From: a virus
DNA: 21,135 bases
Direction: 5' to 3' (one strand)
IMG/VR virus record: IMGVR_UViG_3300032315_000260
Location: 1 to 21,135 of that record
The translations under genes and the position numbers were made by a program. Under the pieces are notes generated by a model that was not told the origin of the DNA, did no database searches, and worked only from the letters and a program-made list of their open reading frames with translations. Positions 976 to 19,387 of this stretch are shown here, piece by piece (position 1 is the stretch's first letter; each line of letters begins with the position of its first letter).

Positions 976-2027
976 TGGCCCTGTTGAAACCAGAAGTTCA
1001 GGGAGTAACAACTAATGCAACAGTACAGACTCCTCCTGTTGCGGTAGATCCTCAGGATATCTACAATCTAGGGACATCTGTTAAGACTTTGCTCGACAAG
1101 GTTACTGTCATGGACAAGGTTATAGACCCTGAGACAAAGGATCTTATTGAGCCTAGGATTACCCCCTCTGTACCAGATTCAGGTCTGTCTCCCCAAGCAC
1201 AGGGCTTTCTTGATGCTATTGCTAGTGCTGAAGGTACTGGTGGTGACTACAACATTATTGTCGGTGGTCAGAAATTTGAGGGTTATGAAGAGCATCCTAA
1301 CATCGTAGGTCTTGTTACAAAGGCTGGCTCTAGTACAGCCGCTGGTAAGTACCAGATTACAAAGCAGACATGGGATTACCTAAAGGGTAAGTACGATGAC
1401 CTTGGTCCCTTTGATCCCGCTAATCAGGACAAGGCTGCTTTCTACCTTGCCAAGGAAAGATATAAGAGAGGAACAAAAGGCAGAGACCTTGAGGCAGATC
1501 TTATGGCAGGGAATACCCAGTTTCTAAGAGAAGCCCTTCAGAAAACTTGGACTGGTATTGTGGTGAATAAAGATTTTGAGAAAACTGTTGCGGGTAATAT
1601 CAGGTCTAGAACGACTACAGTTCTGAAGCCTGTGGGGTTTACCACTATCAAGTATACCAATCAAGATGCTACCAGAAACAAACCTGTGGCTTTTGAACTT
1701 GAGGCAAAGCTTGACTCTGCTATCACAGAAGTCTTGGGTGTGGGGTACACAGTAGAGGTATTTTCTGGTGGTCAGGATGAAGAGAAGACAGGTTCTGTCC
1801 GTCATAACGTAGACAAAGAAGGTGCTGGTCTTGCTGCGGATGTCAAGATCTATGATCGTGAAGGAAAGCAAGTAAAGGACCGTAAGACTTTGGATAAGCT
1901 CAGAGACTTCTGGTTACAGAACGACTACGGATCAGTCGGTACGTACATGGGAGAGGCTGGTATGCACTTCGACGTATGGACTAAAGATAAACTACAACCC
2001 GGTATGGGTTCTACTTGGAGGTACTAA
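975..2027 (+). CDS. Two-domain virion lysin: lysozyme-like plus M15-like peptidase
   Basis: The protein has 350 residues. Residues about 72-195 look like a lysozyme/transglycosylase fold: IASAEGT with likely catalytic Glu86, then AAGKYQITKQTWDYL, and QDKAAFYLAKERYK, the pattern of GH104/lambda-R-like enzymes. Residues about 235-350 carry an M15 (VanY-like) metallopeptidase signature: SVRH (His277), GAGLAADV (Asp289) and MHFDVW (His331), the three expected zinc ligands. So it should cut both glycan strands and peptide cross-bridges. There is no signal peptide; the N-terminal 70 residues are Pro/Thr-rich. It lies next to an internal virion protein and has no holin beside it, so a virion-borne lysin used at genome entry is more likely than the lysis endolysin, though the latter is possible. 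Start ATG 975 is coupled to the upstream stop. Confidence 0.8.
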   Translation: MALLKPEVQGVTTNATVQTPPVAVDPQDIYNLGTSVKTLLDKVTVMDKVIDPETKDLIEPRITPSVPDSGLSPQAQGFLDAIASAEGTGGDYNIIVGGQKFEGYEEHPNIVGLVTKAGSSTAAGKYQITKQTWDYLKGKYDDLGPFDPANQDKAAFYLAKERYKRGTKGRDLEADLMAGNTQFLREALQKTWTGIVVNKDFEKTVAGNIRSRTTTVLKPVGFTTIKYTNQDATRNKPVAFELEAKLDSAITEVLGVGYTVEVFSGGQDEEKTGSVRHNVDKEGAGLAADVKIYDREGKQVKDRKTLDKLRDFWLQNDYGSVGTYMGEAGMHFDVWTKDKLQPGMGSTWRY

Positions 2028-3511: not shown

Positions 3512-4516
3512 ATGGCAAAAAATCCAGTAAAGAAGAAGCCTCCTGCAAAGAAGGTACCTAGAGCCGCTAAAGATCTTAAGCCGGGAGATTCTAGAGCATC
3601 GTACCTTAAGAAGGCTACTGAAAAGAAAGCAAAGCCTCCGTCAGGTACACTGACAGATAGGATGGGAGAGGCTAAGTCTCGTCCTAATAAGGGTCTTCCT
3701 GCAAGAGTTGATAAGTCTAGAGGTAATCTGAACAGAGCTAATCCTCCCAAGGAAATTAGAATGGGTGGTCAGGGTGGTACAGGTAGGTCTCTGACAAGGG
3801 CTGCTTACTTGGACAAGTTCAAGCCTGTACCGCTTGGTGATAGACCTGCCCTTCTGTCTGGTCCTAAGGTAAAGGGCGGTGGCGTTGGTAACGCTCTGGC
3901 AAGAGGTGCTTTCCGTGCTGTTGGTGGTCCTGCTACCATGCTTGTCTCTATGACTACAGAAGCTGGTTCCGGTTCTGATAAGCCGTCAGGTAAGTTGTTC
4001 TCCCCGTCACAGAACAGGGCTGCTGGCAAGGGTAATCCTAAGACTGTTAATCCCTATAAGAAAAGGAAAGATGTTGTAGGCAGAAACCCCAACGAAGGTA
4101 TGGGTGTACCTTCAGCTAAGTCTGCTGCTTCAGCTAAAGCCGCTGTAGCCCGTGACTCTTACTTTACAGATGTCCCTTCTTATACGGGTACAAAAAAGAG
4201 TGGTTCTTATTTTAAGGATGTCCCTTCTTATACGGGTACAAAAAAGAGTGGTTCTTATTTTAAGGATGTCCCTTCTTATACGGGTGTTAAGCCATCTGTT
4301 AGTACAGCTAATGCTAGTGAATTTAAGAAAAAGAATCTGAAGGCTAACCAAAAGGTTGGTAAGAAGGTTATGGCTTCTGAGTCTACGGCAAAAGCCCCCA
4401 AGGCTCCGTCCTTTAAGGGTAACTGGACTGGTGCTACGCCTACTGAGATGCAGAAGAAGGGTGGGCAAAGAATTAAGAGGCCCAATCTCTTGAGCCTCTT
4501 TAGGGGTAAGCGATAA
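3512..4516 (+). CDS. Large basic low-complexity protein with 16-residue repeats
   Basis: The protein has 334 residues and no recognised domain. The first 100 residues are Lys/Arg/Pro-rich (MAKNPVKKKPPAKKVPRAAK). The middle (about 120-150) has a Gly/Ala segment. Residues 216-258 hold nearly three copies of SYFKDVPSYTGTKKSG, and the C-terminus is again Lys-rich. It is probably disordered and DNA- or capsid-binding. It is the last gene of the plus-strand virion module in this window and follows three tiny Lys-rich genes that share its N-terminal style. Candidate roles are a DNA-condensing or minor capsid protein; this is inference from charge and context. Start ATG 3512 lies 1 nt after the previous stop. 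Confidence 0.75.
   Translation: MAKNPVKKKPPAKKVPRAAKDLKPGDSRASYLKKATEKKAKPPSGTLTDRMGEAKSRPNKGLPARVDKSRGNLNRANPPKEIRMGGQGGTGRSLTRAAYLDKFKPVPLGDRPALLSGPKVKGGGVGNALARGAFRAVGGPATMLVSMTTEAGSGSDKPSGKLFSPSQNRAAGKGNPKTVNPYKKRKDVVGRNPNEGMGVPSAKSAASAKAAVARDSYFTDVPSYTGTKKSGSYFKDVPSYTGTKKSGSYFKDVPSYTGVKPSVSTANASEFKKKNLKANQKVGKKVMASESTAKAPKAPSFKGNWTGATPTEMQKKGGQRIKRPNLLSLFRGKR
4157..4285 (+). repeat. 48-bp tandem repeat, 2.7 copies, inside a CDS
   Basis: Units start at 4157, 4205 and 4253; the third stops after 33 nt. Unit 2 and the partial unit 3 are identical over that length. Unit 1 differs by three bases (TAC for TAT; ACA for AAG). The unit is exactly 16 codons, so copy-number change keeps the frame. 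Near-identity at synonymous positions indicates recent expansion by slippage or unequal recombination. Confidence 0.95.
4475..4501. terminator. Possible weak hairpin at the convergent gene junction
   Basis: AAGAGGC (4475-4481) pairs with GCCTCTT (4494-4500) around a 12-nt loop, inside the last codons of the plus-strand gene. A second small inverted repeat, GATTAA-ACA-TTAATC (4533-4547), follows in the 25-nt gap between the convergent genes. Neither has a proper U-tract, so termination here is only suggested by position. Confidence 0.3.
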
Positions 4517-6735: not shown

Positions 6736-6874
6736 CTTTTATCCTTAGTTTTTTACGTATGTATTCTTTATCAGATTCTTTTATTCGTTGTCTATACTTA
6801 TCATCAGACAGTTCCCGTGCATACGGGTTCCTGTCTTTAGGTTTCTTCTGAAAGGTTTTCTCTCTCCAGCCCAT
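6704..6874 (-). CDS. Small charged protein of unknown function (56 aa)
   Basis: ATG at 6874 opens a 56-residue frame beginning MGWREKTFQKKPKDRNPYAR and ending VYEYDDPSN. It overlaps the end of the upstream 60-residue gene by 38 nt and the start of RNR by 32 nt, in different frames, like other coupled genes here. It is rich in Lys, Arg, Asp and Tyr and mostly helical. The pattern (G/S)WREKTFxKKPKDxNPY resembles small phage proteins I recall next to nucleotide-metabolism genes, but I cannot name a family. It fills what would otherwise be a 100-nt gap. Confidence 0.65.
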   Translation of the reverse strand: MGWREKTFQKKPKDRNPYARELSDDKYRQRIKESDKEYIRKKLRIKDVYEYDDPSN

Positions 6875-7019
6875 TGTCGATCTCTTTAAGTTTATCCAGT
6901 TGAGCTAAGATGACATCTTCAAACCTATCATAAAACTCTTCTGGATCTATGTCAAGAATTTCAATCAACTCAATGAGAAAGAACCTGTCAAGGATAAGTT
7001 GCTTAAGATCGAACGACAT
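6837..7019 (-). CDS. Small acidic protein of unknown function (60 aa)
   Basis: The frame has 60 residues, beginning MSFDLKQLILDRFFLIELIE with an acidic middle (DIDPEEFYDRFEDVI), and should be all helical. ATG at 7019 lies 11 nt after the stop of the metallophosphoesterase, with only a weak GAG element upstream. The pattern 'LIELIEILDIDPEEFYDRFEDVI' recalls small helical adaptor-like proteins common in T7-like phages; no function can be given. It overlaps the next gene by 38 nt. Confidence 0.65.
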   Translation of the reverse strand: MSFDLKQLILDRFFLIELIEILDIDPEEFYDRFEDVILAQLDKLKEIDNGLERENLSEET

Positions 7020-7990: not shown

Positions 7991-8066
7991 TGGTGCTGGT
8001 AGTAGGACTTGAACCCACGACCTACCGCTTACAAGGCGGTTGCTCTACCAACTGAGCTATACCAGC
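7991..8066 (-). tRNA. tRNA-Thr (anticodon UGU)
   Basis: This is a 76-nt cloverleaf on the minus strand. The acceptor is GCTGGTA/TACCAGC with discriminator A and an encoded CCA. The D-arm is GCTC...GAGC, the anticodon arm ACCGC-CTTGTAA-GCGGT, the variable loop AGGTC and the T-arm GTGGG-TTCAAGT-CCTAC. Anticodon TGT (8031-8033 as ACA on plus) reads ACA. ACA is frequent in this phage's genes and typically rare in G+C-rich alphaproteobacteria, so it likely compensates for host codon bias. Confidence 0.95.
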
Positions 8067-8075
8067 ATTATCTAG

Positions 8076-8098
8076 GATTAGACTTTACTTTTCTAATC
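8076..8098. other. Hairpin in the spacer between the two tRNAs
   Basis: GATTAGA (8076-8082) and TCTAATC (8092-8098) form a perfect 7-bp stem with a 9-nt loop. On the minus strand it would fold between tRNA-Arg and tRNA-Thr in a joint precursor, where it could guide processing. On the plus strand it overlaps the promoter proposed for the HNH gene. Confidence 0.4.
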
Positions 8099-8112
8099 TT
8101 TTATGTTATAAT
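8084..8112 (+). promoter_or_regulatory. Sigma70-like promoter for the HNH gene
   Basis: TTTACT (8084-8089), a 17-nt spacer, then TATAAT (8107-8112) with an extended -10 TGT directly before it. The same TGTTATAAT element occurs in the strong promoter at 20143-20172. Transcription would start near 8119 and cross the whole tRNA-Arg gene in antisense before reaching the HNH start at 8210. Confidence 0.55.
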
Positions 8113-8114
8113 AG

Positions 8115-8192
8115 TGGCGGTCACGGCGGGACTCGAACCCACAACCTAATGCTTAGAAGGCATTTGCTACTATCCAGTTGAGCTACGCAACC
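8115..8192 (-). tRNA. tRNA-Arg (anticodon UCU) with a bulged D-stem
   Basis: This is 78 nt on the minus strand. The acceptor GGTTGCG pairs with CGTGACC (two wobble pairs), with discriminator G and an encoded CCA. The anticodon arm is AATGC-CTTCTAA-GCATT, the variable loop AGGTT and the T-arm GTGGG-TTCGAGT-CCCGC. Anticodon TCT reads AGA, common in this phage. The D-arm is unusual: GCTC pairs with GTAGC only if one T is bulged, where a normal tRNA would have GAGC. The tRNA may still fold and function, or be slightly decayed. Confidence 0.88.
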
Positions 8193-8209
8193 TTTACGAG
8201 GAGTATAAC

Positions 8210-8485
8210 ATGGGTTACAAAAACAAACAAGACCTCTATCGTAATCAGATAGAACGTTGGAGGAAAAGAAAACTAGAAGCTATTTCTTACAAGGGAGGGT
8301 CTTGTTGTAAGTGTGGGTACTCGAAGTACTACGGCGCTTTACATTTTCATCATAGAGATCCTTCTACAAAAGAAGCTAGTTGGAACAAGATAAGGTTATG
8401 GCCTTGGGAGAAGGTCTTAACTGAACTAGATAAGTGTGATCTTCTTTGTGCTAACTGTCATGCTGAAGAACATCTATCCAACTGA
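8210..8485 (+). CDS. HNH endonuclease (free-standing, homing-like)
   Basis: The protein has 91 residues. A basic N-terminal helix is followed by CCKC (32-35), LHFHHRDP (His47/His48, the HNH core) and LLCANCHAEEH (Cys80, Cys83, His84), giving the zinc-stabilised beta-beta-alpha metal nuclease fold. GAGGAG stands 6 nt before ATG 8210. It is the only plus-strand gene inside the minus-strand replication block and has its own promoter candidate, both typical of mobile free-standing endonuclease genes. Its last codons (HLSN, stop) are written in a tRNA D-arm-like sequence, and it overlaps the end of the convergent endonuclease VII gene by 12 nt. Homing activity is inferred from family and position. 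Confidence 0.85.
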   Translation: MGYKNKQDLYRNQIERWRKRKLEAISYKGGSCCKCGYSKYYGALHFHHRDPSTKEASWNKIRLWPWEKVLTELDKCDLLCANCHAEEHLSN

Positions 8486-8497
8486 GCTAAGGGTAGG
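8473..8497 (-). other. tRNA 5'-half remnant at the junction of two endonuclease genes
   Basis: On the minus strand this stretch contains TAGCTCAGTTGGATAGA preceded by a 7-nt CTACCCT. That is the order of a tRNA acceptor 5' strand, positions 8-9, and D-arm. The 17-nt core is closer to the tRNA consensus than the D-arm of the intact tRNA-Arg at 8115-8192. The similarity stops there, with no anticodon or T-arm. The stop codons of the HNH gene (plus) and the endonuclease VII gene (minus) both lie inside it. Confidence 0.65.
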
Positions 8498-8830
8498 AAC
8501 TATACCGTATGCTTTCTGTGTCTTTAGATATTCGTAAGCTCTCTTTGCTATGTTAACGTCATCACGAAAGATCCTTCCTAAGAGTACGTGATTACATCTG
8601 TAACATAAAAGCCCCCTAATTTCTCCAGTGGTGTGATTGTGATCGACTGCAAGGTTTCTCCGGGGTTTAATCTTTTCAGGAGATCGCTGACATATTGCAC
8701 AACATCCGTTTTGGATAGAAAGTATTGAATGGTACGCATCTCTTGTGAGTCCATACTTTTTCTTTATCTCCTTCCACCGTTGGGGAGAGTCGTTAAGCTT
8801 TGACTTCGGGGACTTCCGGTTCTTTTTCAA
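8474..8830 (-). CDS. Recombination endonuclease VII-like protein
   Basis: The protein has about 118 residues. The core is CCAIC (43-47), NLAVDHNHTTGEIRGLLC (DHNH at 63-66) and CYRCNHVLG (76-85): the His-Me/HNH zinc-nuclease signature of the T4 gp49 family, which resolves branched DNA and is common in T7-like replication blocks. The N-terminal part WKEIKKKYGLTRDAYHSIL also fits. The start is uncertain: no ATG exists in frame, and TTG 8830, inside the end of the exonuclease gene, is the best candidate but has no good Shine-Dalgarno. It may be the resident resolvase or itself a mobile endonuclease; its end lies in the tRNA remnant. Confidence 0.85.
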   Translation of the reverse strand: MKKNRKSPKSKLNDSPQRWKEIKKKYGLTRDAYHSILSIQNGCCAICQRSPEKIKPRRNLAVDHNHTTGEIRGLLCYRCNHVLLGRIFRDDVNIAKRAYEYLKTQKAYGIVPTLSSVG

Positions 8831-19282: not shown

Positions 19283-19332
19283 TTGCTTACCTTTCATTTG
19301 GTTTGTTTAAGCCCGTTAAGGGCATTGGACTT

Positions 19333-19387
19333 GGCTAGTCCCTCAGGTTCCCAGTGTTTTCCTACATAGGAAACTGAGGGACTAGCC
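19333..19387. repeat. Large inverted repeat with nested palindrome
   Basis: GGCTAGTCCCTCAG (19333-19346) and CTGAGGGACTAGCC (19374-19387) form a perfect 14-bp stem. The loop contains TTTCCTA-CA-TAGGAAA (19358-19373), another perfect 7-bp stem and one copy of the dispersed TTCCTACATAGGAA motif. It lies in the leader of the 170-residue gene. There is no U-tract, so it is an operator, a stabilising RNA stem or a replication structure rather than a simple terminator. Confidence 0.75.

Follow-up and report, generated by a model that had tools for sequence, protein, structure and literature searches.

Two endonuclease genes, lying on opposite strands of a viral genome, stop within the same two dozen nucleotides, and those nucleotides read as one half of a tRNA gene. 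How did such an arrangement come about, and what became of the rest of the tRNA? The DNA analyzed here (the window) is a 21,135-nucleotide stretch of an IMG/VR virus record. An earlier note on it had offered two possibilities: an invading sequence replaced most of a tRNA gene, or an HNH endonuclease cassette brought tRNA sequence along from a previous insertion site. As detailed below, comparisons with related phages favor the first of these, and they point to a cassette that carries a replacement for the tRNA it interrupts.

Two Endonuclease Genes End Within a tRNA-Arg Half

The tRNA-like stretch occupies positions 8473..8496 on the minus strand. Read from 8496 to 8473 (CTACCCTTAGCTCAGTTGGATAGA), it consists of a 7-nt acceptor strand followed by a D arm, 24 nt in total, and it is identical letter for letter to nucleotides 1-24 of the intact tRNA-Arg(UCU) in three related contigs, L032 (which has a 98% identical exonuclease), L034 and L036. 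This exact identity confirms that both endonuclease genes end in the 5′ half of a tRNA. Within the window, the 17-mer TAGCTCAGTTGGATAGA at 8489-8473 (minus strand) has a single zero-mismatch occurrence, and three matches are found when up to three mismatches are allowed, compared to 0.19 expected. ARAGORN and Rfam called only the two intact neighboring tRNAs in the window; at 24 nt, the remnant is too short for either.

The stop codons and last residues of both proteins are encoded by the remnant, as the earlier note had proposed and as can be read directly from the two ORF ends. The HNH ORF (8210..8485, plus strand, 91 aa, antisense to the tRNAs) ends in CTA-TCC-AAC-TGA, read from the strand opposite the D arm, and its C-terminal codons L-S-N-stop (8474..8485) are thus the reverse complement of CTATCCAACTGA. 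An independent insert in another phage, L227, has an HNH gene with the identical LSN-stop tail. The endonuclease VII gene (8474..8830, minus strand), assigned by its PF02945 domain (1e-21; 77 bits against a cutoff of 23.6), has its last seven codons and stop in or at the tRNA 5′ half (CCT-ACC-CTT-AGC-TCA-GTT-GGA-TAG, or P-T-L-S-S-V-G-stop), with the first C of the CCT codon one base outside the tRNA.

The earlier note treated these two genes alike. Both do end in the tRNA, but only the HNH gene arrived by insertion. In two phages whose site is empty (L038 and L039), endonuclease VII already ends 20 nt within an intact tRNA-Arg, and its overlap with the tRNA is therefore ancestral and older than the HNH insertion. 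The idea that the insertion created the endonuclease VII tail was rejected for this reason. In L032-L035, L001 and L048, endonuclease VII is replaced, on the upstream side of the tRNA, by another ORF, which is GIY-YIG-like as assigned by eye. It was also observed that several ORFs between the exonuclease and tRNA-Arg stop inside the tRNA, for example with a TAG formed by nucleotides 8-10 of the L035 remnant. The ends of the endonuclease VII and GIY-YIG-like ORFs inside the tRNA indicate that both sides of tRNA-Arg attract nuclease genes.

The HNH ORF has its own start and stop, and a Shine-Dalgarno sequence, GAGGAG, at 8198-8203. Its membership in the HNH endonuclease superfamily is established by its best profile match (PHROG 2255, HNH endonuclease, 3.9e-24), by the invariant residues C32, C35, H47, H48, C80, N82, C83 and H84 (pattern CxxCGY..HH..CANCH), and by an AlphaFold model with a pLDDT of 89.7, for which Foldseek returned weak matches, mostly to HNH enzymes (best E 0.24). 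A Pfam search with this protein gave no match, and the nearest PDB sequence (E 0.07), which belongs to a group II intron maturase, is uninformative.

Empty and Filled Alleles at One Conserved Site

We collected relatives of the window through the adjacent exonuclease and then mapped them at the tRNA-Arg locus. The earlier note had suggested a comparison with relatives that lack the HNH gene, and such relatives exist: in L032, L034, L036-L041 and L033/L048, the HNH gene is absent and a single intact tRNA-Arg(UCU) occupies the position, followed by tRNA-Thr. In the window, this downstream neighbor is the tRNA-Thr(UGU) called by ARAGORN at 7991..8066 (minus strand). Moreover, when viral contigs were scanned for the native tRNA 5′ half, the native tRNA-Arg proved intact in all 37 stretches recovered, with the exception of L227 and of L238, which is the L001 contig. 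These are also the only two stretches with the HNH gene, which lies antisense beside the tRNA half. Searching the whole locus against phages with blastn gave only tRNA matches among the matches listed.

The sister contig L001 retains what the window has lost. Along the tRNA strand it carries the native 5′ half (CTACCCTTAGCTCAGTTGGATAG), the antisense HNH gene together with a complete and different tRNA-Arg(UCU), and the native 3′ half (TTCTAAGCATTAGGCCGCTGGTTCGAGTCCAGCAGGGTAGGCCA). The acceptor strands of the two halves pair at 7/7 positions, and the acceptor of the enclosed tRNA (GGTTGCG/CGCGACC) is unlike the native one. With the empty sites, these two halves around the insert bear out the proposal that an invading sequence replaced most of a tRNA gene. 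The window corresponds to the L001 insert minus approximately 50 nt that held the native 3′ half; this half, now useless, was lost from the window after the insertion.

The same layout is found elsewhere. L227 carries a native 5′ half (CTACCCGTAGCTCAGTTGGATAGA), the HNH gene, a very different tRNA-Arg(UCU) (beginning GGTCCTATGG) and a native 3′ end (CGGGTAGGCCATGC), while L300, L310 and L331 each have their own native halves and their own inserted tRNA-Arg(UCU). Native halves are thus present on both sides in L001, L300, L310, L331 and the cultured phage Bas92, and a 5′ half with a 3′ end in L227. The anticodon arm is partly missing from the native halves of the inserts. In L192/L035, the HNH gene is more divergent and the tRNA remnant is shorter. 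A cassette composed of an antisense HNH gene, a promoter-like site and a substitute tRNA-Arg(UCU) therefore recurs in several unrelated phages. The native 5′ halves differ by phage (CTACCCT in L001, CTACCCG in L227, GCGCTCT in Bas92), and each insert is flanked by the half belonging to its own phage, which makes the second possibility, of tRNA sequence brought by the cassette from a previous site, wrong for this stretch.

Cultured phages harbor both alleles. In the E. coli phage Bas92, the order is 5′ half (GCGCTCTTAGCTCAATGGATAG), antisense HNH gene, inserted tRNA-Arg(UCU) and 3′ half (TTCTAAGCTATTGGTTACAGGTTCAAATCCTGTAGGGCGCACCA), and its relative LAMP is an empty allele in which both Bas92 halves are present exactly. 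Empty alleles also occur in phiEco32 and Bas89, and filled alleles in Ptacy1532, Ptacy1479 and TH38. A second HNH family is inserted in the same native tRNA in Bas91 and Bas93, after a similar 5′ half; the profile of the window HNH family does not match the HNH proteins of these two phages. The second-family gene of Bas91 extends as far as a complete tRNA-Arg(UCU) and takes its stop codon from nucleotides 8-10 (TAG) of that tRNA.

A separate observation concerns an odd tRNA-Arg(UCU)-like RNA in L191 (3287-3362, plus strand), L299 (2787-2862, plus strand), L300 (2289-2374, minus strand), L459 (approximately 1440-1521, minus strand) and L452 (approximately 1425-1515, minus strand). The normal D arm is absent, the anticodon arm appears to sit within a short helix, and the T arm is preceded by a GGAGT stretch. 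With the Bas93 copy as query, blastn recovered this RNA from 124 phage records; most of the matches listed were unannotated.

A Substitute tRNA and a Shared Right End

The earlier note did not recognize the part played by the intact tRNA-Arg adjacent to the HNH gene, which is a substitute with the same anticodon and a different sequence. This cargo tRNA-Arg(UCU) is complete (8115..8192, minus strand; called by ARAGORN, 55.7 bits to the Rfam tRNA family, acceptor GGTTGCG) and lies 18 nt from the HNH start. It is 62-71% identical to the native tRNA-Args with which it was compared, and the cargo tRNAs of different inserts are 57-76% identical among themselves, the window/L001 pair excepted. The cargo anticodon was UCU in all filled Arg cases that were read (window/L001, L227, L300, L310, L331, L192 and Bas92).

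Two other tRNA-like sequences were noted. An empty-site tRNA-Arg in L033 (2566-2643, plus strand) combines the native acceptor CTACCCG with a D arm (GTAGCTCAACTGGACAGTAGCAA) identical to that of the L001 cargo, a mixture that suggests recombination between cargo and native tRNAs. In the window, 6891-6907 (minus strand, TAGCTCAACTGGATAAA), inside a small ORF (6837-7019), has 15 nt in common with the cargo D arm, probably by chance.

Beyond the cargo tRNA lies a right-end segment (8078..8098, minus strand) common to independent inserts. Its form is GATTAGA-N9-TCTAA or GAGTAGA-N9-TCTAA in window/L001 and GGATAGA-N9-TCTAA in L227, L300 and L310, with a spacing like that from D loop to anticodon, and it appears to mimic this portion of a tRNA. 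On the opposite strand, 8084..8112 forms a sigma-70-like site (TTTACT-17-TATAAT, 10/12 match), and this block aligns across the window, L001, L227 (TTGACA-16-TATAAC), L300, L310 and L192. The window match is modest, and promoter-like sites in the region as a whole show no excess over shuffled sequences; the site is a weak hint of an HNH promoter. Transcription of the HNH gene from this site, if it occurs, would begin on the far side of the cargo tRNA and cross that tRNA in antisense.

HNH Stops, Split tRNAs and Isoacceptors Across the Family

Of 84 non-redundant relatives of the HNH protein, 23 terminate within a tRNA gene, compared to 39 of the 588 other ORFs of the same loci (p=1e-7), a comparison that is conservative or at least rough given that the control ORFs include spurious ones. 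Stops no more than 15 nt from a tRNA add 11 relatives (35/588 controls; p=5e-9 for both classes together). The commonest stop position is tRNA nucleotides 8-10. No HNH start (0/84) lies inside a tRNA, compared to 52/588 control starts. The HNH gene of DC31 is not within a native tRNA. A search seeded with the divergent L035 protein yielded few relatives.

A split-tRNA detector found an HNH gene enclosed by tRNA halves in L001, L003, L015, L016, L124, L131, L133 and L149, with no detections in 69 control loci or in 1680 Markov-shuffled loci; detections without an HNH gene inside (L011, L113, L160) were set aside. A cargo tRNA of the same isotype is lacking in some of these splits: L003 and L131 have no such tRNA, and L133 has tRNA-Ile. 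Only in the Arg(UCU) clade, therefore, is the complete cut-and-replace form demonstrated.

Several structures were observed in passing. In L011 (1742-2065, plus strand), tRNA halves GCCCTCT/AGAGGGC surround a complete tRNA-Leu(UAA) with no HNH gene, possibly an insert that has lost its endonuclease. L016 has a HEARO (HNH-associated) RNA at 4044-4307 (plus strand), near another tRNA-inserted HNH gene. A long hairpin in the window (19331-19387, minus strand; GGCTAGTCCCTCAG...CTGAGGGACTAGCC), for which the only match was a weak one to a miRNA, is likely to be a terminator or some other structured element.

In a tree of 103 HNH cores labeled by the nearest tRNA (7 labels by hand, on the basis of the sequences), built from a short alignment whose deep forks are poorly supported, the labels Arg(UCU) and Asn(GUU) require 5 changes, compared to a shuffled mean of 16.0, and none of 500 shuffles was as low. 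The labels cluster strongly, and the HNH tree follows the tRNA isoacceptor. The clade that includes the window has 26 rows and moderate support, with 21 labeled Arg(UCU), and it contains bacterial chromosomal members. Within it, L298, L302, L307 and L410 have a tRNA-Arg(UCU) within 130 nt, and L364 is located at a tRNA-Arg(CCU). In Fibrisoma and other Bacteroidota (L366, L403, L372, L375), the HNH gene is antisense in an insert at the anticodon of tRNA-Arg(UCU). These inserts read as group I introns, although the L366 example scores below the Rfam family gathering score (43 bits, E 8e-8), and their position points to the anticodon site as the target.

Discussion

We consider it likely that the window harbors a free-standing HNH homing endonuclease specialized on tRNA-Arg(UCU), whose cassette supplies a replacement tRNA. 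The HNH gene lies outside any intron or intein, with no intron in the window or in L001, and filled and empty alleles exist at one conserved site, as is characteristic of free-standing homing endonucleases. It belongs to the HNH family rather than having the GIY-YIG domain of SegB-type enzymes, and the catalytic intron that defines a group I intron-encoded endonuclease is absent around it. The anatomy that carries this reading is directly observed: empty and filled alleles, flanking native halves with cargo between them, protein tails read from tRNA, and tracking of the isoacceptor. HNH cleavage and tRNA rescue are what we infer from these sequences.

On the tRNA strand, the cassette comprises the antisense HNH gene, the complete cargo tRNA-Arg(UCU) and the right-end segment holding the putative HNH promoter. 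The break in the native gene falls between its D loop, after GGATAG[A], and its anticodon loop, with TTCTAA. During mixed infection, the endonuclease might nick or cut HNH-less tRNA-Arg genes between these loops, and repair via short tRNA homology (GGATAG, TCTAA) at one or both joints could then copy the cassette. The native tRNA would be destroyed, and the cargo, with the same anticodon and an altered body, would restore AGA decoding. At 62-71% identity to native tRNAs, the cargo would probably escape cutting. Insertion would thus be cheap, and clean loss would be impossible without losing the tRNA. However, in window/L001 the cargo anticodon arm equals the one in the L001 native 3′ half, making resistance of the cargo less obvious; escape would rest on the D arm or flanks. 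Phage tRNAs may also be dispensable, in which case "rescue" might be a by-product rather than a function.

An unlikely alternative is a two-step history, wherein a tandem pair of tRNA-Arg genes acquired an HNH gene in or next to one copy, which decayed and left the intact tRNA as a bystander. Loci dense in tRNAs are common, many family members just adjoin tRNAs of various isotypes, and the wide variation between cargo sequences would also fit such a history. However, the intact tRNA lies between the native halves in L001, L300, L310, L331 and Bas92, and so arrived with the insert. Empty relatives have only one tRNA-Arg at the site, and unrelated phages share the order of antisense HNH gene, tRNA-Arg and promoter block.

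Far less probable is that the insert is, or recently was, a group I intron that carries an HNH ORF and splices itself out, and that the halves still yield a tRNA. Group I introns of tRNA genes do house close relatives of the HNH gene in Bacteroidota, CPR, Omnitrophota and L149 (the L149 insert is a true intron of this type; L113 has another, with no HNH gene inside). However, Rfam gave no intron match in the window at E<5, on which basis such an intron was rejected, and none in L001, L227, L300, L310 or L331 at the thresholds used. Moreover, the insert is fully taken up by the HNH gene and an intact tRNA, the halves lack part of the anticodon arm, and the window has no 3′ half. Finally, a chance match where the ends of the two protein-coding genes overlap, for which the shortness of the remnant and its coding on both strands might speak, is refuted by the empty sites, where the exact native 5′ half sits at the syntenic position, and by both halves in L001, and has a negligible probability.

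Returning to the cut-and-replace reading, a broader and more tentative proposal is that these elements constitute a natural cleave-and-rescue drive. HNH lineages, each tuned to one isoacceptor, would spread from phage to phage as they cut the tRNA gene and leave a divergent, uncuttable tRNA with the same anticodon, such that tRNA bodies are replaced wholesale and the anticodon is kept. The second, unrelated HNH family of Bas91 and Bas93 would do likewise at the same tRNA.

These arrangements offer a concrete mechanism for the fast turnover of phage tRNA genes, in which selfish endonucleases target a gene and carry its substitute. Genes for tRNAs are conserved and ubiquitous targets. Phage tRNAs are also known to counter host defenses that cut tRNA (PMC13096335, PMC11555353), and forced replacement of tRNA bodies could thus alter sensitivity to such defenses. 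As cultured E. coli phages offer both the filled allele (Bas92) and the empty one (LAMP, phiEco32), the invasion of essential targets is directly testable.

Comparison with Known Systems

Several known systems share features with this cassette. Group I introns with endonucleases are known in tRNA genes, and those with HNH ORFs have the same HNH clade, the same tRNA-Arg(UCU) anticodon-loop target and, in Bacteroidota, the antisense orientation. However, a group I intron restores its tRNA by splicing, whereas the phage cassettes are intron-less and bring a second tRNA. Mitochondrial homing endonuclease genes (for example, in Allomyces atp6) duplicate the end of the gene they displace. They likewise enter a functional gene and supply a replacement for the displaced part, but their targets are protein genes and the replacement is a fused C-terminal piece rather than a complete isoacceptor tRNA. 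Integrase-type elements regenerate tRNA 3′ ends, and similarly preserve the function of the target tRNA with sequence borne by the element. The cassette differs in having no integrase and in interrupting the gene in the middle, leaving both halves broken.

The closest free-standing counterpart is SegB of T-even phages, a GIY-YIG homing endonuclease encoded among tRNA genes that cuts the tRNA-region DNA of relatives and drives the spread or amplification of tRNA genes (PMC13096335; reviewed in PMC2988022). The segB 3′ end and the tRNA-Tyr 5′ end share microhomology (PMC13096335). Like the window HNH gene, segB is a free-standing endonuclease gene embedded among tRNA genes, but it lies between intact tRNAs and has no reported split native tRNA with a same-anticodon substitute. 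Our search covered the open-access literature and turned up no endonuclease cassette described as splitting a tRNA gene and carrying a divergent tRNA with the same anticodon. Free-standing homing endonucleases near tRNAs are already known from SegB, and relative to that literature the new part is the split-and-replace form.
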